A stretch of DNA of 64,000 nucleotides from contig NZ_VLLL01000006.1 in NCBI RefSeq assembly GCF_007994225.1, positions 806,001 to 870,000 on the forward strand, written 5' to 3'. Shown piece by piece: positions 5,642-57,802 of the stretch. The position numbers were made by a program, and so were the translations under genes. Below the pieces are notes generated by a model, which did no database searches, was not told the origin of the DNA, and saw only the letters and a program-made list of their open reading frames with translations. The stretch is from Stackebrandtia albiflava. GTDB lineage: Bacteria > Actinomycetota > Actinomycetes > Mycobacteriales > Micromonosporaceae. Each line of letters opens with the position of its first letter. Position 1 is the stretch's first letter.

Positions 5642-6234
5642 TCGTCCTCCTCGGTCTCGTCGCCGGTGGCGGCGGCGATGAGCCGCCGGAACACCGGCAG
5701 TGTCCGGTGCGCGTCGAGCGCCGGGTCCAGTGCCTTGTGGATCACGATCCCGTCGAAGGCGGCGAGCAGGACCGCCGCCGTGGCCGCGGGTTCGGGCACC
5801 CGGTGCCGGGCCAACAGGTCGGTGACGCGTCGCCTGAAGTCGTGGACCGCCGCGCGCAGCTCCCGGTGGAGTTCGGGGTCCCGGGTGGCGGCCAGGAAGG
5901 TCTCCGTCATCAGCAGGGACGCCGGGTCGTGGCCGGTGTAGGCGTCCAGCGCGGTGAGGATCTCGGCCACGGCCCGCTCGGGATCCAGGCCGTCCAGGCC
6001 GGTCTCGGTGTCGGCGAGTAGGCGCCGCACGTCGGTCATGGCGGCCTCCCGCAGCAGGGCGGGGAGGTTCGCGAAGTGGTAGTGGACCAGGCCGGGCCGC
6101 ACTCCGGCGCGGGCGGCGAGCACACGGGTGCTGACGGCCGTCCAGCCGAGTTCGGCTATCAGTTCGGCGGCGGTGGCCAGTAGTCGTCGTCTCACCTCGC
6201 GGCCCCGGTCGGTGCCCGGATGTGTGTTCGGCAA
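5638..6234 (-). CDS. TetR-family repressor of the adjacent monooxygenase
   Basis: A 198-residue TetR-family regulator. The N-terminal HTH occupies residues about 12-60 (EVRRRLLATAAELIAELGW, TRVLAARAGVRPGLVHYHF), followed by an all-helical ligand-binding domain. It is the first gene of a two-gene operon with the FAD monooxygenase. An almost perfect 10-bp inverted repeat 19-45 bp upstream of the ATG (6253-6279) is the likely operator, so autoregulation and substrate-induced expression of the monooxygenase are expected. The Tyr-His-Phe recognition-helix end (VHYHF) is typical of the family. Confidence 0.9.
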   Translation of the reverse strand: MPNTHPGTDRGREVRRRLLATAAELIAELGWTAVSTRVLAARAGVRPGLVHYHFANLPALLREAAMTDVRRLLADTETGLDGLDPERAVAEILTALDAYTGHDPASLLMTETFLAATRDPELHRELRAAVHDFRRRVTDLLARHRVPEPAATAAVLLAAFDGIVIHKALDPALDAHRTLPVFRRLIAAATGDETEEDE

Positions 6235-6252
6235 GGTCTCGGCCCTTCATGC

Positions 6253-6279
6253 TGGACGATCGTCTTGGTCGTTCGTCCA
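6253..6279. promoter_or_regulatory. Probable TetR operator, inverted repeat
   Basis: The arms TGGACGATCG (6253-6262) and CGTTCGTCCA (6270-6279) are complementary at 9 of 10 positions around a 7-bp spacer. The site sits just upstream of the TetR start at 6234, where a repressor would block its promoter. The size and symmetry suit a TetR dimer. The assignment to this regulator is by position. Confidence 0.7.
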
Positions 6280-6327
6280 ACTCTATCGCGAGACCTCCAC
6301 CCACCGCAACCGACGTCGTGAGGCGGA

Positions 6328-7164
6328 TCAGCGCGGCGGGATCTCCAGCAGGGCCGTGACCGGCCCGGTCACCCCGGGCATCCCGGCCAACAGCGGATGG
6401 AAGTGCGGATCCGTCACGTGGCCGTCGAAGACCAGCCGCGTCACGGGTGAACCGGCGAGCGCCGCCGCGATACAGCCCGCCAGCAGCGCCCGCGCGTCGG
6501 CGGCGTCCGGCGTCAGGCACTCCGCGATCGCCTCCGACTCGTCCGCACCGGACTCGAAGACGAAGCACGCGGCGACGACCCCGCCCGCCCGCAGCGCGAA
6601 CCGGGAACGCGCGGGAGTGAGCTCGTCCGTGATCATCGCGGTGAACAGTTCTCGGAGCCGCGCCCGAGGCGCGGTCGGCGACCATCCGGCGTGGATGAGC
6701 ACGTAGTAGTCCGTCCACAGGTCCAGCAGCCGGTCGGCGGTGAACGCGTCACCCGTCACCACGTCGTCGCGCAGGTGCGCCGCGATCCACCGCGTCATAC
6801 CCGCCGCCGTGGTGTCCACCACCGAGGGCGGGCACCGCTGGTACTCGACCGCGCCGAGCGCGCGGGCGAAGTGGTGACCGGTCGAGTCCGGCCGGACCTT
6901 CGCCGAGAACGGCCGGTCCGCGTGGGCGGACAGCTCACGCACCAGGGCCGTGCCCAGCCCCCGGCGGCGATGGCCGGGCCGCACGTACACCCACAGCGGC
7001 GACCGCCCGGGGTGGAACTCGTTGCGGGCGCAGCGGGCAACCGCCACCGGGCCGTCGACACCGTCCACCACATAGGACGCGTCGTCGGGTCGCCGGCGGT
7101 GCGGCCGGACCCAGTCGAGGTCGGGGAAGGCGACGGCGTCGTCCTCGGTGGCGGGTCGGATCAT
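6328..7164 (-). CDS. GNAT-family N-acetyltransferase
   Basis: A 278-residue protein whose N-terminal half is a GNAT domain. Residues about 60-85 read SPLWVYVRPGHRRRGLGTALV, which includes the acetyl-CoA pyrophosphate-binding R-x-x-G-x-G/A loop. The C-terminal half (FVFESGADESEAIAECLTP) resembles a second, degenerate GNAT fold, so this may be a tandem GNAT. The start at 7164 (MIRPATEDD) fits the usual GNAT opening strand. The gene is monocistronic and divergent from the large regulator at 7261. Acceptor substrate is unknown. Confidence 0.85.
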   Translation of the reverse strand: MIRPATEDDAVAFPDLDWVRPHRRRPDDASYVVDGVDGPVAVARCARNEFHPGRSPLWVYVRPGHRRRGLGTALVRELSAHADRPFSAKVRPDSTGHHFARALGAVEYQRCPPSVVDTTAAGMTRWIAAHLRDDVVTGDAFTADRLLDLWTDYYVLIHAGWSPTAPRARLRELFTAMITDELTPARSRFALRAGGVVAACFVFESGADESEAIAECLTPDAADARALLAGCIAAALAGSPVTRLVFDGHVTDPHFHPLLAGMPGVTGPVTALLEIPPR

Positions 7165-7260
7165 TCCGCCATCATGCGGGCCGCCTCCACCGTCCGCCAG
7201 TGGATTCCGGCCGGCGCCGGGCCGGGTGCCCGCCGCCCCGACCCTCCACACTCATGACCC

Positions 7261-10200
7261 GTGATCCGCTGTGACATATATGATCTCCTCGTGACGACCG
7301 GGGTGGGTCTACTGGTGTTGGGGCCGGTGCGCGTCACCGTCGGCGGCCGCGCCCACCTGCCCCGTCCCACCCAGGCCGACCTGCTCGCGGCGCTGCTGCT
7401 GCACCGCGGCGGCCCCGTCTCCGCCGTCGAACTGTCCACCATGGTCTGGGGCGAGTACCGCCGTTCGGCACTCCATCCGGCGGTCTCCCGGCTGCGCGGA
7501 TGGCTGCGAGAGGTCACCGCCGGTGCCGCCACCGTTGTCAACACCGTCAACGAGTACCGGATCGCCACCCACGGGCACACCGACACCCGCCGGTTCGACG
7601 ACCACGCCGCCGCCGCGGCCACCGGAACCGACGCCCGACGGCTCACCGCCTGGACGGCGGCCCTGGAACTCTTCCGGGGCGTACCCGCCGAGGGCGCCCG
7701 CGACGCGGTGCGGGAACACTCCACCACCCGTGAGTGGTCGCTGCGGCGCGCCACGGCCGTCACCGAGGCCACCCGGCTGGCCCTGCGACTGGATCGCGCC
7801 GACACGCTGCTCGACGCCGTCGGCAAGGCGTCGGCGCAACACCCCGACAGCGAGTACGTGCAGGCGTCCTGGGCGTTGCTGCTGGCCGCCACCGGTCGGC
7901 GCCCGGAGGCGCTGGACCACCTGGAACGGTTCAGGAACCGGTTGTCGGAGCGGTTCGGCACCGATCCGGCCTCCGACTACTTCCACACCGCGCAACGCCG
8001 CATCCTGCGGCAACGACCCGCCGGCGTGCCGGCCGCCACGGAGCGGTCACGACCGCACGAGTGGTGGGGCGACCGCATCCCCTCACCCGACTGCGTCGGT
8101 CGCGACGCCGACCTGGACGAACTCGACACGCTGCTGACCCGGCACCGGATGGTCACCCTCGTCGGACCCGGCGGGATCGGCAAGTCCACCCTTGCCGGGC
8201 GCCTCGCCGAACGGCAACGCGGTCGCCGGGGAATCGTCGGGGTCGCCCTGCAGGCGGCCGACGGCGCCGAAGACGTCACGGCGGCACTCGCCGCCGCCTG
8301 CGGTGTCGCCGGGGAACCGTTGCGGGAGCGGGTGACCGCCGCGCTCGCGGACACCGACCGGCTCCTGCTGCTCGACGACTGCGACCGCAACGGCGAGGCG
8401 GTCGCGGACCTGGTCGGCCGGTTGCGGTACGCCGCACCGGCCCTGGGGATCCTCGCGACCTCCCGTTCACCGCTGGGCGTTCCGGGGGAACAGGTGTGGC
8501 GGGTCGCGCCGTTGCGGACACCCGACCCCGGGGACCTCCTGGGCGAGACCGGTTCGGCGGTCGAGTTGTTCCACCGGGTCGCCCGCCGCTTCGACCACCG
8601 GTTCCGGCCCGACCGGACGGAACGCGAGGCGATCGCGCGGCTGTGCCGCATGGTGGACGGGATGCCGCTGGCCATCGAGATCCTCGCCAGCCGCATGCAC
8701 ATCTACTCGGCGCACGAACTGCTGGAGAACCTGTCGTCGTACGGTGCCGCACTCGACCTGCCGCACCCGGCGATCGACCCCCGCCACCGGTCGATGGCGA
8801 CCACACTGGACTGGTGCGTCGACCGGGTGCCCGAGGCCGCGCGGCGGTTGCTGGCGACCGTGTCGATCCTGTCAGCGCCGTTCACCACCGACCTCGCCGC
8901 CGCCGTCGCCGGCGAACCCGTACACCACGCCGCGGCGCTCCTGGCGCAGCTCACCGACCACTCGCTGCTGCGCCCGGTCCGCGACGGCGGCCGTACGAGA
9001 TTCCTCGCGCTGGAGCCGATCCGGCAACACGCCCGCCGCATGCTCGACGACGACGCGGCACGGGCGGCGACACACCGGCTCGTCGCGCACTGGTTGCGGT
9101 TCGCGCGCCGCCTCGACGCCATCCCCCGCTACGCCGACCGGATCGCCTACGCCGCCCGGTACCGGCACGACGCGCCGCACCTGACACAGGCCGTGCAGGC
9201 GGGCGACGGCACCGGACATCCGCACGCGGGCGCCGAGATCCTCGCCCGCGGCTACGAATACTGGATGTGCGGCTACGACCTGCCCGGACGTGGCCCGGCC
9301 CTGCTGGAGGCGCAACTGGCCGGTGAGGTCCCGGACCGGGAACTGCACTGCCTGCTGCGGTACCGGGCCGGCCTCCAGGCGGCGCTGCGCCACGACTACA
9401 CCGCCGCGCAACACATCCTGGAGTCCACCGTGGATGAACTCGCCGCGCACCGGCCGAGGGAGCACCGGCAGGCCCTCCTGATACTCGCCACCTGCGCCAA
9501 CTCCAGGCTCGACACCGACGCCATGGAACGCGCCCAGGCCGCGATCCGCGTCATCGGCGACGACGTCTCCGACGGCGCCCCGTTCGTGGCGGCGTGCTGC
9601 GGAATGGCGACCGCCATCGCGTGGGGCCGCCACGACCTGGCGACCGCACTCGCCGACCGCCACGACACCCTGGCCGCTGCCGCCGGTCACCGGCCCTCCA
9701 ACACATACCTGGCGTTGCGCACCGAACTCGCGGTCGCGGCCGGTGACACCGACGCCGCCGCCCGCCACAGCGCCGCGCTACTGCGCCGACTCGGTCAACC
9801 CGGCTCGGTCGGCGACGCCGAACCGGTCTACTGCGCGGTCACCCGCACCCACCTGGCCCGGGGCGGTGCGGCCGCCGCCGCCCGCACCGCCCGGCGCGGC
9901 ATCGCCTACCTGGAGGGCCGCTGGTCGCAGGCGACGTCCCGCACCCTCACCCTGCGGGTGTTGTACGCGGAGGCGTTGCGCCGCACCGGGGACACCGCGG
10001 GCGCGCTCGCGCAACTGCGGTACGTGCTCGACCACGCCGACGGATTCACCCGGGTGGCCGTCACCGCCGTCCCGGCCGTCGCCGCGGTCACCGGGGACAC
10101 CACCCTGGCCGGCGAATGGGAACGGTTCCGGTCCACGCGCGGCCTTCCGGTCCCGCCCGCACTCGTCGACGCCCTCACCGGTCTTCGGCCCGAACCGCGC

Positions 10201-10266
10201 GCCGCCGGGGAGACGTCGCCCGAGACGCTCGTCGCCCGTGCCCGCGAGGCGTTGCGGCATCGGTGA
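7261..10266 (+). CDS. AfsR/SARP-type regulator (SARP-BTAD-NB-ARC-TPR)
   Basis: A regulator of about 1000 residues with the full AfsR-like architecture. It has an OmpR-type winged-helix DNA-binding domain (residues about 15-95, beginning LLVLGPVRVTVGG), a BTAD helical domain (about 100-245), and an NB-ARC ATPase with Walker A GPGGIGKST near residue 302 and Walker B LLLLDDCD. A long C-terminal helical/TPR-like region follows. SARPs bind direct heptamer repeats of 11-bp period. Such a repeat starts at the very end of this gene (10264-10292), upstream of the ESX-like cluster, which is therefore a natural target. No clear ribosome site precedes the GTG at 7261. The GTG at 7291 is an alternative start nearer to the conserved domain. 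Confidence 0.9.
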   Translation: MIRCDIYDLLVTTGVGLLVLGPVRVTVGGRAHLPRPTQADLLAALLLHRGGPVSAVELSTMVWGEYRRSALHPAVSRLRGWLREVTAGAATVVNTVNEYRIATHGHTDTRRFDDHAAAAATGTDARRLTAWTAALELFRGVPAEGARDAVREHSTTREWSLRRATAVTEATRLALRLDRADTLLDAVGKASAQHPDSEYVQASWALLLAATGRRPEALDHLERFRNRLSERFGTDPASDYFHTAQRRILRQRPAGVPAATERSRPHEWWGDRIPSPDCVGRDADLDELDTLLTRHRMVTLVGPGGIGKSTLAGRLAERQRGRRGIVGVALQAADGAEDVTAALAAACGVAGEPLRERVTAALADTDRLLLLDDCDRNGEAVADLVGRLRYAAPALGILATSRSPLGVPGEQVWRVAPLRTPDPGDLLGETGSAVELFHRVARRFDHRFRPDRTEREAIARLCRMVDGMPLAIEILASRMHIYSAHELLENLSSYGAALDLPHPAIDPRHRSMATTLDWCVDRVPEAARRLLATVSILSAPFTTDLAAAVAGEPVHHAAALLAQLTDHSLLRPVRDGGRTRFLALEPIRQHARRMLDDDAARAATHRLVAHWLRFARRLDAIPRYADRIAYAARYRHDAPHLTQAVQAGDGTGHPHAGAEILARGYEYWMCGYDLPGRGPALLEAQLAGEVPDRELHCLLRYRAGLQAALRHDYTAAQHILESTVDELAAHRPREHRQALLILATCANSRLDTDAMERAQAAIRVIGDDVSDGAPFVAACCGMATAIAWGRHDLATALADRHDTLAAAAGHRPSNTYLALRTELAVAAGDTDAAARHSAALLRRLGQPGSVGDAEPVYCAVTRTHLARGGAAAAARTARRGIAYLEGRWSQATSRTLTLRVLYAEALRRTGDTAGALAQLRYVLDHADGFTRVAVTAVPAVAAVTGDTTLAGEWERFRSTRGLPVPPALVDALTGLRPEPRAAGETSPETLVARAREALRHR

Positions 10267-21767: not shown

Positions 21768-21808
21768 TTAGTTGTACTATCGTACAAGTAGTACGAGAGT
21801 ACAACTAA
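21768..21808. promoter_or_regulatory. 41-bp palindromic operator upstream of MFS exporter
   Basis: Two 18-bp arms (TTAGTTGTACTATCGTAC at 21768-21785 and its near-perfect complement at 21791-21808, 17 of 18) flank a 5-bp centre. The site ends at the ATG 21808 and lies 20 bp before the better-supported GTG start of the exporter. It is AT-rich compared with its surroundings. It is the natural binding site for the TetR regulator encoded by the second gene of the cassette. Confidence 0.75.
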
Positions 21809-21828
21809 TGACGAGCCGAGGAGACCCC

Positions 21829-23373
21829 GTGGTCACGGAACGATTCACACGCGCCGGTTGGCGGGAATGGGCCGGTCTGGCATTGTTGGCCTTGCCGACC
21901 ATGCTGCTCGGACTCGACCTCACCGCGCTCTATCTGGTCGTTCCGAGCCTCACCGCGGATCTGACGCCGACCGCGACGGAGACGCTGTGGATCATGGACG
22001 TCTACGGATTCCTCATCGCGGGATTCCTCATCACCATGGGAACGCTGGGCGATCGGATCGGCCGCCGACGCCTGCTGATGATCGGAGTGGCCGCCTTCGG
22101 CGTGGCCTCGATGTTCGCGGCGTTCGCCCCCGGCGCCCCGGCCCTGATCGTGGCGCGGGCACTGCTCGGCGTAGCCGGAGCCACCATGATGCCCTCCACG
22201 CTGTCATTGATCAGCACCATGTTCGCCGACGCTCGACAACGGGCACTCGCGATCGGAATCTGGGCCACGATGTTCGCCCTGGGTATGGCGGCGGGCCCGG
22301 TAGTGGGCGGGGCACTGGTGGCCGAGTTCTGGTGGGGTGCGGTCTTCCTCATCGCCATACCGATCGCCTTCCTCGTGCTCGCGGGGGCGCCGGCACTACT
22401 GCCCGAATCGCGGACCCGCGCGGGCCGACTCGACCTGTGGAGCGTCGTTCTGTCCCTCGTGGCGATGCTGACCGTCATATACGCGGTCAAGCACGCCGCC
22501 GCCGAAGGCGTCGACGCCCGATCGCTGGTCGCGGCCGTCGTCGGTGCCGGTTCGGCGATCGCCTTCGTCCGTCGGCAACTCCGCCTGCCGCAGCCGCTGT
22601 TGGACATGGGCCTCTTCACCAGCCGTGCGTTCTCCGCGGCGTTGACGGTCCTGCTGATCGGCCTCGTCGGCTTCGGCGGGATGATGTACCTGGTCACCCA
22701 GTATCTTCAGCTCGTCGCCGAACTCTCGCCCGGCACCGCCGGACTGTGGATGGGGCCGCCCGCACTCGCCATGCTCATCGGGGCCATCGGTGCCCCGCTG
22801 CTGGCCGGCCGCATCTCACCAGGCGTGATCATGTCGGTGACCCTGGCCGTGTCCGTCTCCGGATACGTCCTGCTCGCCTTCGCGGGCACCGACAGCACGT
22901 TCAGCGTGGTCGGCGGATTCGCGTTCGCCTATCTCGGGCTCGGGGTGATCGCCGCGCTCGGCACCGACATCGTCGTTGGCGCGGCACCGGCCGAGAAGTC
23001 CGGATCAGCCGCCGCACTGTCGGAGACCGTGCAGGAACTGGGCATCGCGGCGGGAGTGGCGCTCCTCGGCAGCCTCACCACGGCGATCTATCGCCACACG
23101 ATCACCCCGCCGACCGGACTGCCCACCTCCGTGGCCGAAGGTTACGACGACAGCCTCTCCGGCGCGACGTCCGTCGCCGAACAACTCCCCGAGTGGGCCG
23201 TCGAATCGGCACGTGCCGCGTTCACCGACGGTCTCAACATCGCCGCGATCACCGCGGGCGTCGTGACGGCTGCGGCGTCACTGCTCTGCTTCACGACACT
23301 GCGGCACGTCCCTCCCCTCGGCGACGAAGACCCACGGCCGGCCGATAGCCTCGACTCACTCGGGCGGCGATGA
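21829..23373 (+). CDS. MFS drug/proton antiporter, DHA2 (14-helix) family
   Basis: A 514-residue major facilitator of the EmrB/QacA type. It has about 14 hydrophobic segments and motif A in loop 2-3 (GTLGDRIGRRRLL). Helix 1 carries LDLTALYLVVPSLTADL, close to the family pattern LD-T-VN-ALP. It probably exports cationic or hydrophobic drugs using proton motive force. The GTG at 21829 was chosen because a GAGGAG ribosome site lies 6 bp before it. The ATG at 21808 lies inside the palindromic operator and has no such site. It forms an operon with a TetR gene 12 bp downstream and is probably inducible by its own substrate. Confidence 0.9.
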   Translation: MVTERFTRAGWREWAGLALLALPTMLLGLDLTALYLVVPSLTADLTPTATETLWIMDVYGFLIAGFLITMGTLGDRIGRRRLLMIGVAAFGVASMFAAFAPGAPALIVARALLGVAGATMMPSTLSLISTMFADARQRALAIGIWATMFALGMAAGPVVGGALVAEFWWGAVFLIAIPIAFLVLAGAPALLPESRTRAGRLDLWSVVLSLVAMLTVIYAVKHAAAEGVDARSLVAAVVGAGSAIAFVRRQLRLPQPLLDMGLFTSRAFSAALTVLLIGLVGFGGMMYLVTQYLQLVAELSPGTAGLWMGPPALAMLIGAIGAPLLAGRISPGVIMSVTLAVSVSGYVLLAFAGTDSTFSVVGGFAFAYLGLGVIAALGTDIVVGAAPAEKSGSAAALSETVQELGIAAGVALLGSLTTAIYRHTITPPTGLPTSVAEGYDDSLSGATSVAEQLPEWAVESARAAFTDGLNIAAITAGVVTAAASLLCFTTLRHVPPLGDEDPRPADSLDSLGRR

Positions 23374-24741: not shown

Positions 24742-24780
24742 GCGGCTCGGCGTGGCGGCGACCTGGCCCAACCCGACCTG

Positions 24781-24841
24781 CTTGGTCCCCGCCAGGTCGC
24801 GCCTGGTCCCCGCCAGGTCGCGCTTGGTCCCCGCCAGACAG
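24781..24841. repeat. Three tandem 21-bp repeats
   Basis: The unit C[TC]TGGTCCCCGCCAGGTCGCG occurs at 24781-24801 and 24802-24822 (one difference). A third copy starting at 24823 matches for the first 15 bases and then diverges. An inverted copy of the first 12 bases (GCGGGGACCAAG) is at 24911-24922. This could be a binding-site array or a slipped-strand expansion. Confidence 0.75.
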
Positions 24842-24951
24842 GCATGAACAGGCGCAAACAACGCGAAACGGTCGCGATTGGCTCACTGGGAGAGGACCAA
24901 GCGGCACCGGGCGGGGACCAAGGACTGCGGCGTCCGCGTCGCGCCGAAGCC

Positions 24952-26409
24952 CTACCTCAGTCGGCGGGATTCGTCTCCGAGGGAGTAGGCGGTGATGACC
25001 GGTCCCGTGTCATCGCCGTGATACGGAATCGGTGGTTCGGGGCGTTCCGAGTTCCGGCCCCTGATCACCGTGGGCGTCGTGACGATGTCGGGAAGCCATT
25101 CACGCCCCGGGTCCGTCGCCTCGACGGGATCGTCACACCGCACGGTGGCCGGTGGTACCGGGCGGCGAGGGAGCCGGCCGTTTCCGATCACCGCACGGTT
25201 GGGTCGATCATCACCCCCGTGCCGGATTCGAGGTGCCCGATCGAACCGGGGAGCCGGCGGTGGCGCGGGGGCCGCCGAGGGCGGCCGCGCGGTGATGACC
25301 CGACCGCTCGCCACGACGGTCGGCCGGATCCGGTAGCGGAGGCCGCTTCCGCGCGGTGATGCCGGGGGCGTCCCGGTTGATGACGGCACGGAGGCGAACC
25401 CGGGTGGGATCGCACGGTTGCCGATGGTGGGTGGCAACACCCCGGAGGCGGCGAATCCGGGGCGCGGAGCGATCACGGGGGCCTGACCGGTGCCGCGTGC
25501 GCCGATGACCGGCGACGTCACCGAACGATCCGGGACGAAGGTGGTCATCGAGGGTGTGACGGGCGGCCGCGGCGTGACCCGGGGTGTGAGACGCACCGTC
25601 CGGGTCGCGTCGGCGGGTCCGGTGTTGCCGGGCCTGCCGTCGTCCACAACGGTGTTACCGCCCGGTTCGGACTTCGGGCCGCTCCCGGTGGCGTTGTCGA
25701 CGATGACCACGTCGCTCGTCCACGTGCCGCCCTGCAGGGTCGGGCCGATGTCCACCGACTTCGAACTCCGCCAGGTCCGTTCCTGAAGCAGCCGCTTGTC
25801 GCTGTCGGGTTTCCACCGGTGCCGTGCCGCCCCATCCGAACCCGCCGGCTCCACCGGCGGCAATGTGTCCACAGTGGCGCGATAGTCGGTCGCGGCTCCG
25901 CTGAACCGTTCGCGTGCGAGCCGGTCGTAGTGCAGGTCGACGGCGTCGGCGGTACCGGCACCGGATCCGAACCTGGAGACCAGTTCGGGGTCCGACGGAT
26001 TCGTCGACAGGGCGAGCCTCGTCTCGTCCCGTTCGGTGACCAGCCGCTGGATCTCGGCGTTCACCACGTCGGCCCGCCCGGCCAGTTCGGTGAGGACCTC
26101 CGGTTGCGGTACGACCTGGTGATGCCCGGTGCCGCCGCGTCGCGACAACTCGTCCAGCCGGTCCACCGTCGCGGCCGCACTCAGGCCCGCGAACAGCCTC
26201 TCGATCTGCCGGCGCCCCTCCGGGTCCGTCCGTTCGGTGAGGGCCGTCCGCGCGGCCCGGACCGCCGTGACCGCCGCGTCGACCCGGGCCGCCACGGCGC
26301 GGATCGCCCGGGCCTGGGCGTGCAACTCGCCCGAGTCGGCCGCGTCGGCGGCGGTGAGCCGGGCGATGTCGTCAAGGGTCAGATGCCCGTAACCCGTCGA
26401 GTCGGCCAC
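24952..26409 (-). CDS. ESX-like N-terminus with proline-rich tail (paralogue of 10790-12502)
   Basis: A 485-residue protein. Residues 1-185 are helical and open YGHLTLDDIARLTAADAAD, aligning with FEGLTAEQLIAIAAPD of the protein at 10790-12502. The remaining 300 residues are Pro/Arg/Thr-rich, with motifs SPVIGARG, APVIAPRPG, PPTIGNRA, RAVIGNGR and PTVIRGRN that match the P-V-I-G-x-R motif of the paralogue. It lacks the C-terminal YbaB-like domain, which in this cluster is a separate gene (27045-27593). The ATG lies 38 bp inside the end of the preceding gene, so the two are tightly coupled. It is probably a secreted or cell-surface component of an ESX-like system. Biochemical role is unknown. 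Confidence 0.7.
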   Translation of the reverse strand: MADSTGYGHLTLDDIARLTAADAADSGELHAQARAIRAVAARVDAAVTAVRAARTALTERTDPEGRRQIERLFAGLSAAATVDRLDELSRRGGTGHHQVVPQPEVLTELAGRADVVNAEIQRLVTERDETRLALSTNPSDPELVSRFGSGAGTADAVDLHYDRLARERFSGAATDYRATVDTLPPVEPAGSDGAARHRWKPDSDKRLLQERTWRSSKSVDIGPTLQGGTWTSDVVIVDNATGSGPKSEPGGNTVVDDGRPGNTGPADATRTVRLTPRVTPRPPVTPSMTTFVPDRSVTSPVIGARGTGQAPVIAPRPGFAASGVLPPTIGNRAIPPGFASVPSSTGTPPASPRGSGLRYRIRPTVVASGRVITARPPSAAPAPPPAPRFDRAPRIRHGGDDRPNRAVIGNGRLPRRPVPPATVRCDDPVEATDPGREWLPDIVTTPTVIRGRNSERPEPPIPYHGDDTGPVITAYSLGDESRRLR

Positions 26410-26806
26410 CGGATTCCACTCCCTCCACTGAGACGCCGGTCAGGTCCTCGACGATTCGGCCGAGTTCGGTCGCGGTGACGGTGTCGGCGGCGTCCAGCGA
26501 GTGCCTGACCTCGTCCACCAGCGTGCCGAGCTCCCGCACACTCGCCGCGAGTCCACTCGCGAGCGTCAGACTCTCCGATACCCGCAGGGCCAGGAGTTCA
26601 CCGGTGTCGGCGGCCCCGTGATCTTCGCCGAGGGTTCCAAGGGCGACCCGCACCCCGTGGCGCCGCTTACCGGGGTGGCCGGCGTCGTCGCCGGAGCACA
26701 CCCGGCTGGCGTGCGCGTACACCTCCTCGAGATCGCCCGCGATGAGCTCCATCCGGTCGGTGAAGTCACGCAGCGCGTCGCGGTCGAACCGGACCACGTC
26801 TGTCAT
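26372..26806 (-). CDS. ESX-like small helical protein
   Basis: A 144-residue helical protein (MTDVVRFDRDALRDFTDRMELIAGDLEEVY...) of WXG100-like size, without signal peptide and without a W-x-G turn. It is first in a leftward operon with the proline-rich protein. This is the same pairing as the 129-residue and 570-residue proteins of cluster 1. It overlaps its downstream neighbour by 38 bp, long for this genome. An AAGGGACCTGAG ribosome site precedes the ATG. It is divergent from 27045, and the shared upstream region contains SARP-type heptamers. Confidence 0.65.
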   Translation of the reverse strand: MTDVVRFDRDALRDFTDRMELIAGDLEEVYAHASRVCSGDDAGHPGKRRHGVRVALGTLGEDHGAADTGELLALRVSESLTLASGLAASVRELGTLVDEVRHSLDAADTVTATELGRIVEDLTGVSVEGVESGGRLDGLRASDP

Positions 26807-26915
26807 CTCAGGTCCCTTCTGGTCGCCGAGGCGCCGGTCTGCGCGCCGAATCCGGTTCGAACGTTAGGATGCCCGCCTTCCGCCGACATCGTCCGAAAGG
26901 ATGAGACGCGGCTGA

Positions 26916-26975
26916 TGGTAGGCGTTTGGTAAGCAGGCGTCGCCTCCCTTCCGCGAGTGGTAAGCCGGTGGTAAG
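26916..26975 (+). promoter_or_regulatory. Two pairs of SARP-type heptamers between divergent ESX-like operons
   Basis: TGGTAGG at 26916-26922 and TGGTAAG at 26927-26933 form one pair. TGGTAAG at 26958-26964 and 26969-26975 form another. Within each pair the spacing is exactly 11 bp start to start, and the pairs are 42 bp apart (four helical turns). This is the direct-repeat layout bound by SARP activators, and a SARP gene ends 2 kb away at 28973. The sites lie 70-130 bp from both divergent starts (26806 and 27045), so one array could activate both operons. Binding is inferred. Confidence 0.7.
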
Positions 26976-27044
26976 AGAGGCCCCGGACACTCGGGATTCC
27001 ACCGGTGCACGCGCCCGGGGGACAGCCACACCGAGGAGTCCTGA

Positions 27045-27593
27045 GTGGATCGCCACGTCACCGCATCACCCGCCGGCGCGAGCCCGGCGGACCTCGACCT
27101 GTTGGAACGGTTGGCGAGGTTGAACGTGTCGGCCACGTCGAAGGAGGGGACGGTCACCGTGTCACTGACGGGACCGAGACTCGCCGTCCGGCTGCATCCC
27201 GAACAGGTGGTCCGGATGGCGCCGGCGCTGCTCGCCGACACGGTGGTCCGGGTCTTCACCGGTCTGTTGCGCGGAAGGTCCACCGCCGAGGAACGGGTCT
27301 GGAGCCGACACGAGACGGACGCCGGCCCACCCCCGCCCGCCACAAGCGAGACCGCGCGGCTGCGCGCCGCGGTCGCCGGCATCGACGTGACCGCCGGCAG
27401 TGACTCCGGGGAGGTCTCGGTGAGGTGGCGAGGCGACGGCGACATCCGCTTGACCATCGCGCGCCCCGTCACCCGGCCGTCACAGGTGCCGGAACTGGAG
27501 GCGGCGATCGCTCAGGCGCTACGACGTGCCAACCGTGAATACGCCGCCGCGACGCGGGCGGCGTTCCGGCACCACCGAAAGGAGACGACATGA
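27045..27593 (+). CDS. Double YbaB/EbfC-like domain protein
   Basis: A 182-residue protein of two similar halves, residues about 15-85 and 105-178. Each has strands such as SATSKEGTVTVSLTG or TAGSDSGEVSVRWRG and then a helix. The second half ends AIAQALRRANREYAAATRAAF, as in YbaB/EbfC folds, and resembles the C-terminal domain of the 570-residue protein in cluster 1. No signal peptide. It is first in a rightward operon, its stop overlapping the next ATG by 4 bp. YbaB proteins bind DNA as dimers. Whether this one binds nucleic acid or acts as a chaperone for ESX substrates is unknown. Confidence 0.65.
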   Translation: MDRHVTASPAGASPADLDLLERLARLNVSATSKEGTVTVSLTGPRLAVRLHPEQVVRMAPALLADTVVRVFTGLLRGRSTAEERVWSRHETDAGPPPPATSETARLRAAVAGIDVTAGSDSGEVSVRWRGDGDIRLTIARPVTRPSQVPELEAAIAQALRRANREYAAATRAAFRHHRKETT

Positions 27594-28942
27594 GCTGGGA
27601 TCCGATGGGGAAGGCCGCCGAAGTGCAGAAGGCGGCCATGGCCGCGCTCAAGGCAGAGAAGGCACGCGACCAGGTGCGGGGGCGGCAGGACGTCCACCCC
27701 GGTCCCCCGGCATACGACGACACCGACTTCCTGCTGATCGCCGCGCTACCGGCGGCGTTCGCGTGGCTCGAGCCGCGCGACCCCTCCGGACTGCTCGCCA
27801 AGGCGGCCGCGCTGGAATCGGCGTCGGACACGTTGAAGGGCGCGTCCACCGGCACCGAGGTGATGACTACCACCCTGTTGACCCAGTTCTCGTCGTCCAC
27901 GGTGCACGCGTTCTGCGCATACGCCGGGAAGATGGGCCGAGTGTCGGTGCGGCAACACATGTTGGCCGGGGAACTGGCCAACGCGGCCCGCAACATCGAG
28001 GGCTACCTCCGCTCCGCCGCGCACGACGTCGACGACGCCGCCGACAAGGCCATCAAGGCGCTCCACCACATCGAGACACACGGCAGTGGCACCGGCGGCG
28101 ACTCCCTGCGCCGGGCCCTGGCCGGTACCGTGCTGGGAGTCCTCGGTGCCGCCGTTCCGGCCAGTCGGGGTGTCTCGGTGCTCTTCGCCCTCATCGACGG
28201 AATCCAGGGGGTGATCGGCACGACGGCGCCGGAGACCGGCCCCGACCTCGGTGGCGACACCATCGGCGACGTCGTGGCGAACCTCGTCTCCACGCTGACC
28301 GCCCGCCGCCGTGAACTGTCCGACCTGGACGACGAGATCTCCGGCATCCTCGAGAAGGACGCCGCCACCGTCGCCGGACTGGGTGAGAAACTGTGCCCCA
28401 GCCGGCAACTGATGTCGGACGGCCGAGGCGACCTGCGGCCCGAACCCGGCGGCATACTGGCCGACCTCGGCAAGCTCTACTTCTACGCGACCGACATGTT
28501 GCCGACCCTGGCCAGTGAGTTCGCCGCCGCCAACCGGAGTGTGGCGGCCGCGCACGGTGGTGGTCCGGCGATGGGACCGGCCGCCGGCGTCTGGGACGCG
28601 CTGTGCCTGGAACTCCAGCAGGCGACCGGGAACACGGCCGACAACCTGCACGACGCCGCCGACGTGCTGGAGCGGGCGGCGCTCGATTTCGGTGACGCGG
28701 ACGGCTTCACCCGGACACGGATCGAGGAGTCCGCCGACGACGCGCGCGGCATCGTGGCACCGGACGAGATCTACGATCCACGCGGCGACGAGGTACTTCC
28801 CGTGATCCCGGACGGCCCCAGCTGCCTCGGCGACTACACAGGCCCGCCCGACATCGTCCCGGACCTGCCGGGCGGCGACACGCGGCCCGACACCGGAGCC
28901 GACGGCCTCGCCCAGCTGCTCGTCCCACCGGTGGCGCGGTGA
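27590..28942 (+). CDS. Large helical ESX-cluster protein, possible secreted substrate
   Basis: A 450-residue protein, mostly helical in residues 1-385, with a Pro/Asp-rich C-terminal tail (PDGPSCLGDYTGPPDIVPDLPGG). A hydrophobic stretch near residues 180-210 (ALAGTVLGVLGAAVPASRGVSVLFALIDG) could insert in a membrane. There is no cleavable signal. It is coupled to the YbaB-like gene by a 4-bp overlap. The long helical body with an acidic tail resembles large ESX substrates such as LXG/PPE-type proteins in general shape only. No catalytic motif was found. Confidence 0.6.
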   Translation: MSWDPMGKAAEVQKAAMAALKAEKARDQVRGRQDVHPGPPAYDDTDFLLIAALPAAFAWLEPRDPSGLLAKAAALESASDTLKGASTGTEVMTTTLLTQFSSSTVHAFCAYAGKMGRVSVRQHMLAGELANAARNIEGYLRSAAHDVDDAADKAIKALHHIETHGSGTGGDSLRRALAGTVLGVLGAAVPASRGVSVLFALIDGIQGVIGTTAPETGPDLGGDTIGDVVANLVSTLTARRRELSDLDDEISGILEKDAATVAGLGEKLCPSRQLMSDGRGDLRPEPGGILADLGKLYFYATDMLPTLASEFAAANRSVAAAHGGGPAMGPAAGVWDALCLELQQATGNTADNLHDAADVLERAALDFGDADGFTRTRIEESADDARGIVAPDEIYDPRGDEVLPVIPDGPSCLGDYTGPPDIVPDLPGGDTRPDTGADGLAQLLVPPVAR

Positions 28943-28972: not shown

Positions 28973-29758
28973 TCACGTCGCATACGCACAGGGCTCGTCA
29001 CGGAGTATCGACACGTAGTGGCGACGCAACCGCGGCGAGATGTCGAGCCCGTACCGCTCGTCGAGGACGGTCCGGCACCGGTGGAACGCGTCGACGGCCT
29101 CGGCGGTGCGGCCACACCGGTGAAGCGCGGTCATTCCGGCGGCCACCAGCCGCTCGCGGGTCGGGTGGACGCGAGTGAGATCGGCGAGCTTGGAAGCCAA
29201 CAGTTCGTGCCGGCCCAGCGCCAGCTCCGCCTCCGCCAGCAACTCCCAACCGGTCAGCCTCAACTGCTCCAGTTCCGCACCCAACCGGGCGCGTAGACCC
29301 GGGTCGGCGGCATCCGCGAGTACCGGACCCCGCCATTGGCGCAACGCCTCACGCAGTACGACCGACCGTCTCCCGGGATCCTCCATACGATGCGCACGGT
29401 GCACCGCGTCGGCGAACCGGTGCGCGTCGACCCGGTCGGGCGCGACATCCAGCCGGTACGTGTCATACCGGTGCGGCAGCGCTCCCGGCGGCAGGCACGC
29501 GCGCAGCCTCGACACGTACACCTGCAGGGTGGCACGCGGCCGACCGGGCGAGCGGTCACCCCACAACAGATCGACGAGCCGTTCCACCTCCACCCATCTC
29601 CCCGCCTCCAGCAGCAACACCCCCAACAACAGGCGCTCCTGCCGACGCAGCCCGGTCACCGGTTCGCCCGCGACCCGCGCCGTCACCGGACCGAGTAGCC
29701 GGAAGCTCACATCGACGTCGTCCGAGGCGAGGTGAGTCGTCGTACGGTCTGCTCGCAT
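28973..29758 (-). CDS. Stand-alone SARP transcriptional activator
   Basis: A 261-residue SARP. It has an OmpR-type winged helix at residues about 18-105 (SFRLLGPVTARVAG, QERLLLGVLLLEAGRWVEVERLVDLLWG, LQVYVSRLRACL) and a BTAD domain at about 110-255 ending RTVLDERYGLDISPRL. A GAGGAG ribosome site sits 7 bp before the ATG at 29758. It lacks the NB-ARC/TPR part of the regulator at 7261. A separate NB-ARC protein is encoded divergently at 29970. It is convergent with the ESX-like operon ending at 28942 and is the best candidate to bind the heptamers at 26916-26975. Confidence 0.9.
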   Translation of the reverse strand: MRADRTTTHLASDDVDVSFRLLGPVTARVAGEPVTGLRRQERLLLGVLLLEAGRWVEVERLVDLLWGDRSPGRPRATLQVYVSRLRACLPPGALPHRYDTYRLDVAPDRVDAHRFADAVHRAHRMEDPGRRSVVLREALRQWRGPVLADAADPGLRARLGAELEQLRLTGWELLAEAELALGRHELLASKLADLTRVHPTRERLVAAGMTALHRCGRTAEAVDAFHRCRTVLDERYGLDISPRLRRHYVSILRDEPCAYAT

Positions 29759-29969
29759 CACATTGCTCCTCGTCGGTGGGCCGTCAACCGCCCGAGTGTC
29801 CCTCCGGGACGGGCGCGGGCGGCGCTTTCCGAACACCCCGAACACCCGCCGTCGGCTTGCGGCGGCCGGATACACTCGGCACGATTCCGGACGCCCGGGC
29901 ACCGCTGCCCACTCGGTGCGCCACGGGGGTCCGTCGGGACAGTCGGGTCCGCACAGCCGGGAGGGATCG

Positions 29970-31385
29970 ATGGCCGAGGCACCGCCACGCCCAGTCGGCG
30001 CCGTCCCCGACCCGGCACACATCCACGACATCGCCGGCCTGCTCGCCTGGCTACGCCGACTTCACGAGTCGAGACTCCCGGCGATCTCCTACCGGCGCCT
30101 TGCGGGCATGGTCAACAAGGCACGAGCCGGAAACGCGCCGGCCGTCGGAATGACCACCGTGTACGACCTGTTGTCCGCCAAGGGAACCCGCAGCCGGGTG
30201 GACGGGCGCCTCGTCGAAGACGTCGCGCGGGTGCTGGGCGCCGACGACATCGTGCTGCACCGACTGCGCCAGATCGTCGCGGCCATCGAGATCGCCGACC
30301 GTCCCGGCACACCCGTCGACGCGTCGGCCGCCATCCCGGCCGCCGATCCCCACTTCACCGGCCGCACCGAGGAACTCCAGCACATCGCCACCGGACTGGT
30401 CGCCTGCCACCGGGACGGGCGGCCACCGGTCGCGGTGATCGACGGCCCGCCCGGTATCGGGAAGAGCGCCCTGGCGATTCACACCGCGCACGGACTGCTG
30501 CGCCGCTCACATCCCGGTGTCCGGCGCTTCCACGTCGACCTCCACGGTTTCGATCCGGAGAGACCGGCCCCCGGCGTCGACTCGGTACTGGCTCGGCTGT
30601 CGACATTGGCGGGAATGCCCGCCGAGCAGGCCGACGATCGGAGCGTGCCGCTCGCCGAACGCGTCGACAGATACCGCAGGCGCATGGCCCGGGCGCCGTC
30701 CGTGTTGGTGATCGACAACGCCGAATCGATCGACTCGGTACGCCCGCTGTTGCCCGGTGTCCCCGGATGCACGGTCATCGTGACCACCCGCAGCCGCTGT
30801 GTCGACCCGTCGGTCGTCGCGGTGACGTTGCGGCCGCTGCCGGGCGCCGACGCACTGCGGCTGTTGCGCCACGCCGCCGGCGACCGTGTCGATTCCGATC
30901 CGGCCACCGCCCGGCACCTGGCCGAACGGCTGTGCTTCGGTCACCCGTACCACCTCAAGATGCTCATCGGCCTGCTGCGGGACCCCGCCAAACGGGAATG
31001 GACCCTCGGCGACCTCGGCAAACTCATCGAGAAGCAACCGGCCGACGACCCGTCACGACGACTGTTGTCCACCGTGCTCGAATCGCTGCCGGTGCGTGAT
31101 CGTCGAGTGTTCTGCCTGCTGGGCCTGTTGGCCGGCCACGGGTTCACCGCCGCCGACACGGCGGTCCTGGCCGACGTGTCACCGTCCGAGGCGCGACACC
31201 GGCTGGCCCGGTTGCACGACCGGCACCTCCTGTCGCGACCGGAGCCCGGCGTGGACCGGTTCCGTATGCACGACATCACGGCGGCCTTCGCCCGCCGCAC
31301 CCTCGACGACACCGTCCCGCACAGCGAACAGCAGACCGCGTTGCACCGGTTGTACAACACCGAGACCCGCCGCCACCGGCGTTGA
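29970..31385 (+). CDS. HTH-NB-ARC (STAND) ATPase
   Basis: A 471-residue STAND protein. Residues about 15-90 form an N-terminal helix-turn-helix-like region (ISYRRLAGMVNKARAG, VGMTTVYDLLSAKG, EDVARVLGADD). An NB-ARC domain follows, with Walker A GPPGIGKSA (residues 159-167) and Walker B-like VLVIDNAES, and then a winged-helix/ARC2 part that ends at MHDITAAFAR. No TPR array follows, so it is shorter than AfsR. The ATG has a GGGAGGGA ribosome site. It is divergent from the SARP and 25 bp upstream of the kinase gene, with which it is likely co-transcribed. It probably acts as a nucleotide-dependent switch for the SARP or kinase, which is inference. Confidence 0.85.
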   Translation: MAEAPPRPVGAVPDPAHIHDIAGLLAWLRRLHESRLPAISYRRLAGMVNKARAGNAPAVGMTTVYDLLSAKGTRSRVDGRLVEDVARVLGADDIVLHRLRQIVAAIEIADRPGTPVDASAAIPAADPHFTGRTEELQHIATGLVACHRDGRPPVAVIDGPPGIGKSALAIHTAHGLLRRSHPGVRRFHVDLHGFDPERPAPGVDSVLARLSTLAGMPAEQADDRSVPLAERVDRYRRRMARAPSVLVIDNAESIDSVRPLLPGVPGCTVIVTTRSRCVDPSVVAVTLRPLPGADALRLLRHAAGDRVDSDPATARHLAERLCFGHPYHLKMLIGLLRDPAKREWTLGDLGKLIEKQPADDPSRRLLSTVLESLPVRDRRVFCLLGLLAGHGFTAADTAVLADVSPSEARHRLARLHDRHLLSRPEPGVDRFRMHDITAAFARRTLDDTVPHSEQQTALHRLYNTETRRHRR

Positions 31386-31410
31386 CCCCTTTCGCGACCA
31401 GGAGACCACC

Positions 31411-32916
31411 GTGGAGCAACTCGACGCGGTCGATCCCGAACGGATCGGCGACTACCGGATATTCGGCCGGCTGGGAAGCGGCGGCATGGGCACCGTCTAC
31501 CTCGGTCTGGCGCCCGATCGCCGGCAGGTCGCCGTCAAGACGCTGCGTTCCCCGATCCCGGCGACACCCTCGGCCGACCGCCGGCGCTTCCACCGCGAAG
31601 CCGAGGCACTGTCCAGGATAGACAACCCGTACCTGGTGCGGATTCTGGACGCCGACACCACCGGCGACCCGCCGTGGATCGCCATGGAGTACCTCAAGGG
31701 CGACACCCTGTCACGGTACGTCGGGCAGCAGGGCCCCCTCACGGAACAGGCGCTGGGCACCCTCGCACTGTGCCTGTCGGAGGCGCTGACGACCCTCCAC
31801 GAGCACGGCATCCTGCACCGCGACCTCAAACCCGACAACGTCATGCTCACCGACGACGGCGCGATCGTCATCGACCTCGGCATCACACTGCTCGACGAAT
31901 CGACCAGGTACACCAGCGTCGGCGTCGTCGTGGGAGTGCCGGCCTACCTCCCGCCCGAAGTGTGGCGGGGCCACCCGGCCGGACCGGCCGGCGACGTGTT
32001 CGCGATGGGCGCCGTCCTGCATTGCGCCGCCACCGGCCGGAGCCTGCTGGGTGAGGGCACCCACGGCGAACTGGCCGCCCGCGGCGCCGGCGGAACCTAC
32101 GACCTCTCCGGGCTGCCCCGCCCGTGGGCCGCGATCGTCACCGAGTGCGTAGCCACCGACCCGGCCCGCCGCCCCTCCGCCGCCGACATGTTCGACCGGT
32201 TCACCGAGCGGATGGGCGTGGCACCGCCGTCGCCGGGATGGTGGCGGCGACACCGTGACGCGCCGTCGTCACCCGTCGATCCGGCAGCCATCACCACCGT
32301 GCTGCCGCGGCCACCACGACGGCGCCGCACGATGATCACCGCCGTAGCCGCCGCCTGCGTCCTGTCGCTGATGGCGGCCGGGATCACGGCGTGGCGGCCG
32401 TGGCCGACGGACGCGGCGTCGTTCATCACGGGAGCCGGCCCCTCCCCGTCGCCCGACGACACCGCCGCGCCGACGGATTCCGGCGAGGTGCAACTGCACA
32501 ACGTCGCCACCGGACTGTGCCTGTACGGCGACGCCCTCGGCGGGCACGACGACGGCGAGTACGGGGCCGTGCTGACCCGCCAGTGCGACCCCGACAGCGG
32601 CGACGCCTTCCTGTGGGAGCGCACGGACCTCGGTCAGTACCGCAACGTGGAGACCGGGCTCTGCCTCGCCGACAAGGTCGACATGGAACCGGCCGTCACG
32701 TTGCCCTGCGACAAGACCCACGAAAACCAGTTCTGGCGCGAATACCGGGATCCCGACCTCAAACTGAAGAACGACAAGACCGGGCTGTGCCTGCACAGCC
32801 GCAACATGGCCGGCGACGACGGCGCCGTGTACGGCGAGGTCAAGACCAAGGAATGCGTCACGGACGGCGAATACCAGAGCTGGGAACCACACGAGGTCGC
32901 CACCCGGACACCGTGA
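31411..32916 (+). CDS. Receptor-type Ser/Thr protein kinase with lectin-like extracellular domain
   Basis: A 501-residue membrane kinase. The cytoplasmic kinase domain (residues about 13-265) has glycine loop GRLGSGGMGTVYLG, K43 (VAVKTL), catalytic HRDLKPDN (D138) and a DLG magnesium motif (D155) in place of DFG. PPE stands for APE. A single membrane helix lies at about 308-328. The extracytoplasmic C-terminus (about 355-495) has three similar Cys-containing units (NVATGLCLYG, NVETGLCLAD, NDKTGLCLHS) like ricin-type beta-trefoil repeats, suggesting it senses carbohydrate or cell-wall fragments. The GTG start has an AGGAG site 8 bp upstream. It is likely co-transcribed with the NB-ARC gene. 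Confidence 0.9.
   Translation: MEQLDAVDPERIGDYRIFGRLGSGGMGTVYLGLAPDRRQVAVKTLRSPIPATPSADRRRFHREAEALSRIDNPYLVRILDADTTGDPPWIAMEYLKGDTLSRYVGQQGPLTEQALGTLALCLSEALTTLHEHGILHRDLKPDNVMLTDDGAIVIDLGITLLDESTRYTSVGVVVGVPAYLPPEVWRGHPAGPAGDVFAMGAVLHCAATGRSLLGEGTHGELAARGAGGTYDLSGLPRPWAAIVTECVATDPARRPSAADMFDRFTERMGVAPPSPGWWRRHRDAPSSPVDPAAITTVLPRPPRRRRTMITAVAAACVLSLMAAGITAWRPWPTDAASFITGAGPSPSPDDTAAPTDSGEVQLHNVATGLCLYGDALGGHDDGEYGAVLTRQCDPDSGDAFLWERTDLGQYRNVETGLCLADKVDMEPAVTLPCDKTHENQFWREYRDPDLKLKNDKTGLCLHSRNMAGDDGAVYGEVKTKECVTDGEYQSWEPHEVATRTP

Positions 32917-56674: not shown

Positions 56675-57802
<1,128 letters not shown>

Follow-up and report, generated by a model that had tools for sequence, protein, structure and literature searches.

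A probable SARP operator-promoter ahead of a plausibly ESX-like operon in Stackebrandtia albiflava

To our knowledge, SARPs have been studied almost only as activators of antibiotic clusters. A group of four direct heptamers between two divergent operons of Stackebrandtia albiflava, which had been picked out from the letters alone (here, the sequence-only reading), raises the question of which regulator recognizes these repeats and which genes it would control. We addressed this question by computational comparison, with the window, meaning the whole 64,000-nucleotide stretch of DNA that was analyzed, as the point of departure. We put a probability of about 0.8 on the reading that the array is a SARP operator-promoter, bound by the SARP encoded at 28973-29758 and activating the operon at 27045-28942. 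The features concerned are as follows; G004 and G001 (Candidatus Stackebrandtia faecavium) are congeners.

24952..26409, - strand: proline-rich protein of 485 aa, encoded second in the divergent operon, with relatives in both congeners
26372..26806, - strand: protein of 144 aa, modeled as a helical hairpin and encoded first in the divergent operon; G004 and G001 have relatives
26916..26933, + strand: pair 1 (predicted distal operator), TGGTAGG-CGTT-TGGTAAG, 42 bp (four helical turns) upstream of pair 2
26958..26975, + strand: pair 2 (predicted proximal SARP operator), TGGTAAG-CCGG-TGGTAAG, matching the operator of the SARP clade
26986..26991, + strand: predicted -10 element GACACT, 10 bp 3' of pair 2, fitting the NANNNT rule of the relatives
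27045..27593, + strand: YbaB/EbfC-family protein of 182 aa (PF02575, E 1.2e-10), first gene of the predicted target operon
27590..28942, + strand: mostly helical ESX-like protein of 450 aa, second gene of the predicted target operon, with a 4-bp overlap with the YbaB gene; G004 and G001 carry orthologs
28973..29758, - strand: SARP activator of 261 aa (winged helix and BTAD; BTAD E 1e-31, Trans_reg_C E 2e-08), predicted binder
29970..31385, + strand: AfsR-like NOD (nucleotide-binding) protein, divergent from the SARP (AfsR model positions 279-628, E 5.1e-29, under the family cut-off)
31411..32916 (start approximate), + strand: AfsK-like Ser/Thr kinase with a C-terminal ricin-B lectin domain (data from ORF 30886-32916)

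The geometry first described for the array, four heptamers in two pairs of 11-bp period offset by 42 bp, is borne out by positions, shuffles, simulations, and a genome search. On the + strand, TGGTAGG starts at 26916 and TGGTAAG at 26927, 26958, and 26969, with 11 bp within each pair and 42 bp between the starts of the pairs. Lone TGGTAAG heptamers are mildly unusual in the window (3 seen, 0.95 expected; at least three in 7 of 100 shuffles), and the double pair with 11-bp period, allowing at most one mismatch in all, occurs once there and in none of 100 windows simulated with a second-order Markov model. Throughout the 5.55-Mb genome, TGGTAAG-N4-TGGTAAG with 0 to 1 mismatch is found as pair 1 and pair 2 only. 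At up to two mismatches there are three sites, the array pairs and C2:63119 (2 mismatches), and because a backward-read control pattern gives nine matches at that tolerance, the rarity of the array is meaningful at 0 to 1 mismatch only.

A SARP gene had been noted about 2 kb away, and this holds: counted from the end of pair 2, its stop lies at 1998 bp and its start at 2783 bp. The protein has the domain order that defines SARPs, an N-terminal OmpR-type winged helix (Trans_reg_C at 36-93) followed by BTAD (110-252). Since the genome contains 33 BTAD loci, a SARP beside the array is in itself not very improbable. We searched for the window SARP in 354 genomes of the same GTDB family (Micromonosporaceae; NCBI taxonomy puts Stackebrandtia in Glycomycetaceae) and collected, with flanks, 40 of the 48 best matches from other genomes, the eight left out including the one from G183.

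De novo counting of identical heptamers with an 11-bp period found 50 positions upstream of the relatives, in 22 of the 40 loci, versus 1 in control stretches; the count scanned periods 7 to 23, and some other periods were commoner in controls than upstream (e.g., period 9, with 36 control and 12 upstream positions). The commonest of these heptamers, CTCACCA, is the complement of TGGTGAG. Likewise, TGGTRAG-N4-TGGTRAG or a close variant (pair score of at least 24) lies upstream of 23 of the 40 relatives, versus none of the 31 upstream stretches taken from the remaining SARPs of the S. albiflava genome (30 genes, one fetched twice) and 0 of 39 downstream control stretches, while 60 column-permuted motifs matched a mean of 0.28 of the 40 loci (largest, 6). 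As for the spacer, a gap of 4 gives 23 of 40 at score 24, but a gap of 6 gives 7 of 40; we suppose that in the latter matches the second half falls on CGGTGA letters of the -10 region. One locus (L094) has three CGGCAAG heptamers in a row.

The relatives also share a promoter element at a fixed place. Among 39 distinct high-scoring sites, drawn from the 40 SARP loci and five exact-pair loci, 27 have NANNNT at a distance of exactly 10 bp from the second heptamer, downstream of it, compared with 0 to 2 at any other offset from 2 to 21. When the SARPs were clustered at 65% identity and one was kept from each cluster, 9 of the 19 lineages had a pair scoring at least 23 with the -10 rule somewhere in the locus; the other 10 had no such pair at score 23 in the loci read, with the L088 group (22.9) and L114 (21.0) lying near the threshold. 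Because the score matrix was written after the first 30 loci had been viewed, the motif-score, -10, target, and lineage counts are not blind; the de novo heptamer count and a plain IUPAC pattern search serve as checks on it. A first look at those 30 loci for TGGTAAG pairs with up to three mismatches gave 22 matches, against 18 for the control GTGATGA and 0 to 3 for four other controls. In a quick tree, the window SARP is the only SARP of its genome inside the branch of the 40 relatives (SH-aLRT 94, just below the 95 at which branches were starred). The genome's 32 rows in that tree represent 31 genes, one having entered twice, and none of the 30 alignable SARPs other than the window one lies within the site-bearing clade; the weak BTAD loci C6:12248 and C2:946629 gave no match to the window SARP and were left out.

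The same association emerges when the search begins with the motif. Exact pairs occur at 6 sites in 5 of the 354 genomes, the S. albiflava genome included, versus 2 for a control. Four of the five exact pairs from other genomes have NANNNT 10 bp downstream; three of these four stand upstream of genes whose products begin like secreted proteins, and the remaining one precedes a giant LamG/RHS gene. Relatives of the window SARP (48% and 39% identity) lie next to two of the five, and another BTAD gene lies next to a third. The exact pair of L045, which overlaps a gene end and is followed by no -10 element, looks non-functional. The pattern TGGTRAG-N4-TGGTRAG gave 39 matches in the 354 genomes, versus 23 for the backward control. 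Loci were available for 33 of the 38 matches from other genomes, and 32 were counted, L181 being set aside since its site was off-centre; one of the five matches that had no locus (G366:C48) is a SARP-flanking pair without a -10. Of these 32 sites, 14 combine a SARP within the 3-kb locus with the -10 element, 15 have neither, 1 has the SARP only, and 2 have the -10 only (Fisher p 7e-6, with close orthologs counted separately); one of these last two, in L041, is an exact TGGTAAG pair beside a BTAD gene that fell short of E 1e-5 against the window SARP. NANNNT is found at +10 in 16 of the 32 and at any other offset from 2 to 23 in 0 to 1. In these comparisons, the TGGTRAG motif with its -10 offset goes with the clade of the window SARP. 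The proposal that the heptamers form a SARP operator, with the nearby SARP as the likely binder, is strongly supported through the de novo repeats upstream of relatives and the shared, fixed position of the -10.

In the window, pair 2 has the clade motif and obeys the -10 rule, and the window SARP is the genome's sole member of the clade. Pair 2 therefore probably serves as an operator-promoter that drives the YbaB/ESX-like operon to its right, at 27045-28942. Its candidate -10, GACACT, differs from TANNNT in the absence of the leading T; if this hexamer is set by convention at -12 to -7, the first bases of the two pair 2 heptamers are -40 and -29, and transcription is predicted to start at about 26998, some 47 bases before the YbaB start codon. 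The sequence GAGGAG (27033-27038) lies 6 bp ahead of the GTG of 27045-27593. SARP operators are defined by direct repeats with an 11-bp (or 22-bp) period, according to passages of PMC10936776, and the array has such repeats; its 3' repeat also lies at a set distance from the -10 element. The literature gives this distance as 8 bp, and counting from the last base of TGGTAAG gives 10 bp here, a difference that hinges on which base is regarded as the end of the repeat; with this placing, the repeats are in register with those of the afs box. Behind pair 1 there is no fitting -10 hexamer, and this pair is probably a distal operator. A second pair is likewise present in 19 of the 40 relatives' loci, 64 or 73-77 bp off and often weak (score 20.5 up).

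We infer binding, activation, its direction, and the role of pair 1 as parts of one mechanism. The two heptamers of pair 2, at -40 and -29, would be occupied by two adjacent SARP molecules, which would substitute for a poor -35 and bring RNA polymerase to GACACT, so that the YbaB protein and the ESX-like protein of 27045-28942 would be switched on. Pair 1, in phase four turns upstream, would take up a second SARP pair and make binding firmer. More speculatively, the signal could come from the split AfsR-like ATPase and the AfsK-like lectin kinase, and a type VII machine could export the products. That the genome has one clade SARP and one array counts for the SARP-operator reading, and the 2.8 kb between the array and the SARP start count against it. 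The SARP's own promoter shows no operator motif (best upstream score, 18).

The genes next to the SARP deserve description of their own. Within 28973-32916, a SARP, a NOD ATPase, and a lectin-bearing kinase are encoded by separate genes, a split AfsR/AfsK-like layout. The kinase ORF (30886-32916) matches Pkinase (E 3.9e-37), the AfsK model (E 1.3e-50, under cut-off), and Ricin_B_lectin (E 1.9e-12). It is possible that the NOD protein is a partner of the SARP and that the lectin kinase provides an upstream signal.

How ESX-like are the flanking operons? Three of the four array-flanking proteins, the 485-aa protein (24952-26409) among them, have no match in Pfam or NCBIfam, and no WXG100, PE, PPE, or Esp family domain was found in the window proteins of 24952-28942. 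Relatives of these proteins give sub-threshold matches to T7SS_ESX_EspC (E 0.035) and WXG100_ESAT6 (E 0.056). An AlphaFold2 model of 26372-26806 has a weak likeness to PE25 and EsxA, with probabilities of 0.80-0.82 against PE25 chains but nonsignificant E values of 2.0-2.4, and a model of 27590-28942 has no structural match at E 0.001; both models are poor (mean pLDDT, 66 and 53, respectively). An EccC ATPase gene, by which a type VII secretion locus is recognized, is absent from the cluster: five EccCa loci exceed the cut-off in the genome, none of them within the window, and the nearest on the same contig is about 270 kb away. Membership of genes 24952-28942 in a type VII/ESX system is plausible but weakly supported, by the sub-threshold relatives, the hairpin model, and the five distant EccC loci. 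The label "ESX-like" given to both operons on first reading is softer than the array itself, and the first rightward gene is of the YbaB/EbfC family.

A profile of the 450-aa family matches 49 of the 354 genomes, with E values below 1e-190 in S. albiflava itself, G001, and G004, the last of which has two more copies at about 1e-77. Contig 1 of the S. albiflava genome also holds a paralogous cluster (L161; G000:C1:1259000-1272000, 5741-10051), unidirectional and beside PTS-like genes, whose products are, in order, of 146 aa, 588 aa, 194 aa (YbaB-like), 139 aa, and 349 aa; the first three were matched by eye, the 146-aa one also by alignment, and there is no SARP among the genes called there. 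Its 139-aa and 349-aa neighbors match the C- and N-terminal parts, respectively, of the 450-aa family, and because these separate relatives lie side by side, the 450-aa protein of 27590-28942 looks like, and probably is, a fusion. Farther left in the window are a short tandem repeat in overlapping frames (24770-24845; LVPARSR on the + strand, GGDQARP on the - strand) and, at 21772-23373, a gene for an LfrA/QepA-like MFS efflux transporter that scores under NCBIfam cut-offs.

The expectation that the heptamers would be conserved upstream of orthologous operons failed in both congener clusters. Neither a SARP nor the heptamers were found in the 15.0 kb read around the G004 cluster or within the 5.4-kb contig that holds the G001 cluster, so the exact promoter is not conserved at the ortholog level. 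The site goes with the SARP rather than with the ESX-like genes, and SARP control of the ESX-like operon therefore looks lineage-specific.

What the clade controls elsewhere can be predicted by the same rule. For 16 sites outside the window, in loci hand-picked to span the lineages and with a -10 match required (L104, which has no -10, was dropped), we called the next downstream gene. Twelve of the 16 products have export-type N termini, signal peptides being judged by eye, and include an Amidase_2 protein, an I36 inhibitor, a 5'-nucleotidase, and a LamG giant; the other four are an HTH-NOD ATPase, a cytosolic-looking protein, a doubtful ORF call, and the product of a giant LamG/RHS gene with an ambiguous start. 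A Pfam scan of 10 of the 16 left four, all small, with no match. One recurrent gene encodes a conserved protein of about 175 aa that looks secreted; it is divergent from a clade SARP, with one or two operator pairs ahead of it (L079, L087, L089, L090, L097-L102, L105, L106, L109, and others), and the L079 member has no Pfam match. The ESX-like operon would fit this theme of export but would use another route. A broader idea, tentative and at somewhat less than even odds, is that the clade is devoted to switching on genes for exported proteins (cell-wall amidase, peptidase inhibitor, nucleotidase, LamG giants, and small secreted proteins) that acts via TGGTRAG-N4-TGGTRAG-N10-NANNNT and has here been captured by an ESX-like operon, where it might time type VII-like export, possibly with the lectin kinase sensing extracellular sugar.

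Other explanations of the array have to be set against these results. That it is a chance repeat without function is very improbable: TGGTRAG pairs do arise by chance in GC-rich genomes, as the backward control shows, and nearly half of the motif-first sites had neither SARP nor -10, but two phased pairs arose in none of the 100 simulated windows, and here they come with a -10 at the right offset and an adjoining clade SARP. PhoP-, GlnR-, AfsQ1-, and MtrA-type response regulators have their DNA-binding fold and 11-bp periodicity in common with SARPs, so that one of these winged-helix regulators could in principle bind such direct repeats. The repeats that AfsR and PhoP recognize overlap at afsS, as described in passages of PMC10972967. 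A global regulator, however, should have many sites, and at 0 to 1 mismatch the genome has such pairs nowhere else; the motif and its -10 offset travel with one SARP clade, and we consider binding by another kind of regulator improbable. Scarcely less improbable is that the array is a SARP operator whose binder is a different SARP of the same genome. The number of BTAD loci favors it, as do the other SARP-like gene of the window (ORF 7261-10266; 1001 aa, BTAD match of 55.9 bits) and the L041 pair, but none of the 30 alignable SARPs outside the clade has the motif upstream at a score of at least 23 (31 stretches).

The claim that the SARP controls both divergent operons fared unevenly. Its rightward half stands as a prediction, since the site is directional and points to direct control of 27045-28942. 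That the array also activates or represses 24952-26806 is unlikely, if clearly less so than the alternatives above: the array does lie between the two operons, and the unidirectional order of the paralogous cluster suggests joint expression, but the heptamers, all four of them, and the -10 are oriented rightward, and the sole leftward pair in the window scoring at least 23 is far off, at 57553, and has no -10. The SARP operator-promoter driving the rightward operon thus remains the preferred reading. If it is true, the clade's operator-plus-promoter rule predicts base by base which promoter the SARP drives, the targets of uncharacterized SARPs become readable from sequence, and type VII-like genes outside mycobacteria gain a concrete regulator. 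Most of the predicted clade targets examined look exported, and one is an ESX-like operon.

A link between SARPs and type VII secretion had been thought undescribed, and among the papers listed in searches of the open-access literature, a scope that takes in few subscription papers, we too found none that puts type VII-like genes (WXG100, T7SS, type VII secretion) under the control of a SARP; PMC3897704 names SARP once, in another sense. The nearest precedent, a partial one for SARP control of an exported protein, is CcaR, the cephamycin-clavulanic acid SARP. Its deletion lowers expression of genes for a secreted protein and for beta-lactamase-inhibitory proteins, and blip is preceded by a putative heptameric site; the target genes differ in being tied to the beta-lactam pathway, and the passages concerned contain no ESX term (PMC3992018). 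Closest in descent is the sister SARP of a member of the same genus (G003, locus L077; 56% identity, starred sister), which has TGGTAAG-N4-TGGAAAG with GAAACT at +10 and differs in its predicted target, a Tat-type Amidase_2 gene rather than ESX-like genes.

The type of operator and the mechanism are themselves already known. PimR, SanG, and PolR use CGGCAAG repeats, two C-to-T transitions apart from TGGTAAG, and the operator of PimR at the pimM promoter resembles the array in its heptameric direct repeats, its 4-bp spacers, and its main and secondary operators; as passages of PMC5930380 describe it, the main operator differs in having three repeats and no overlap with the -35, and the target is a regulator gene of an antifungal pathway. 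SARP-LAL proteins of the PimR/SanG type also carry a fused, large ATP-binding LuxR-like half, which the 261-aa window SARP lacks. The AfsR system of Streptomyces coelicolor is similar in another way. Its afs box spans -40 to -19, with two 11-bp repeats, the upstream one at -40 to -30, and a suboptimal -10, CACTGT; the repeats are occupied by two neighboring SARP molecules, which engage region 4 of sigma (passages of PMC10936776). The AfsK kinase gene near by and the NOD ATPase part extend the likeness. The AfsR repeat, CGTT(T/C)ATCGNN (passages of PMC10972967), is a different sequence, and AfsR joins SARP, NOD, and TPR in one chain, whereas the window has separate SARP and NOD genes, both of which score far below the cut-off of the NCBIfam AfsR model and so do not qualify as AfsR.
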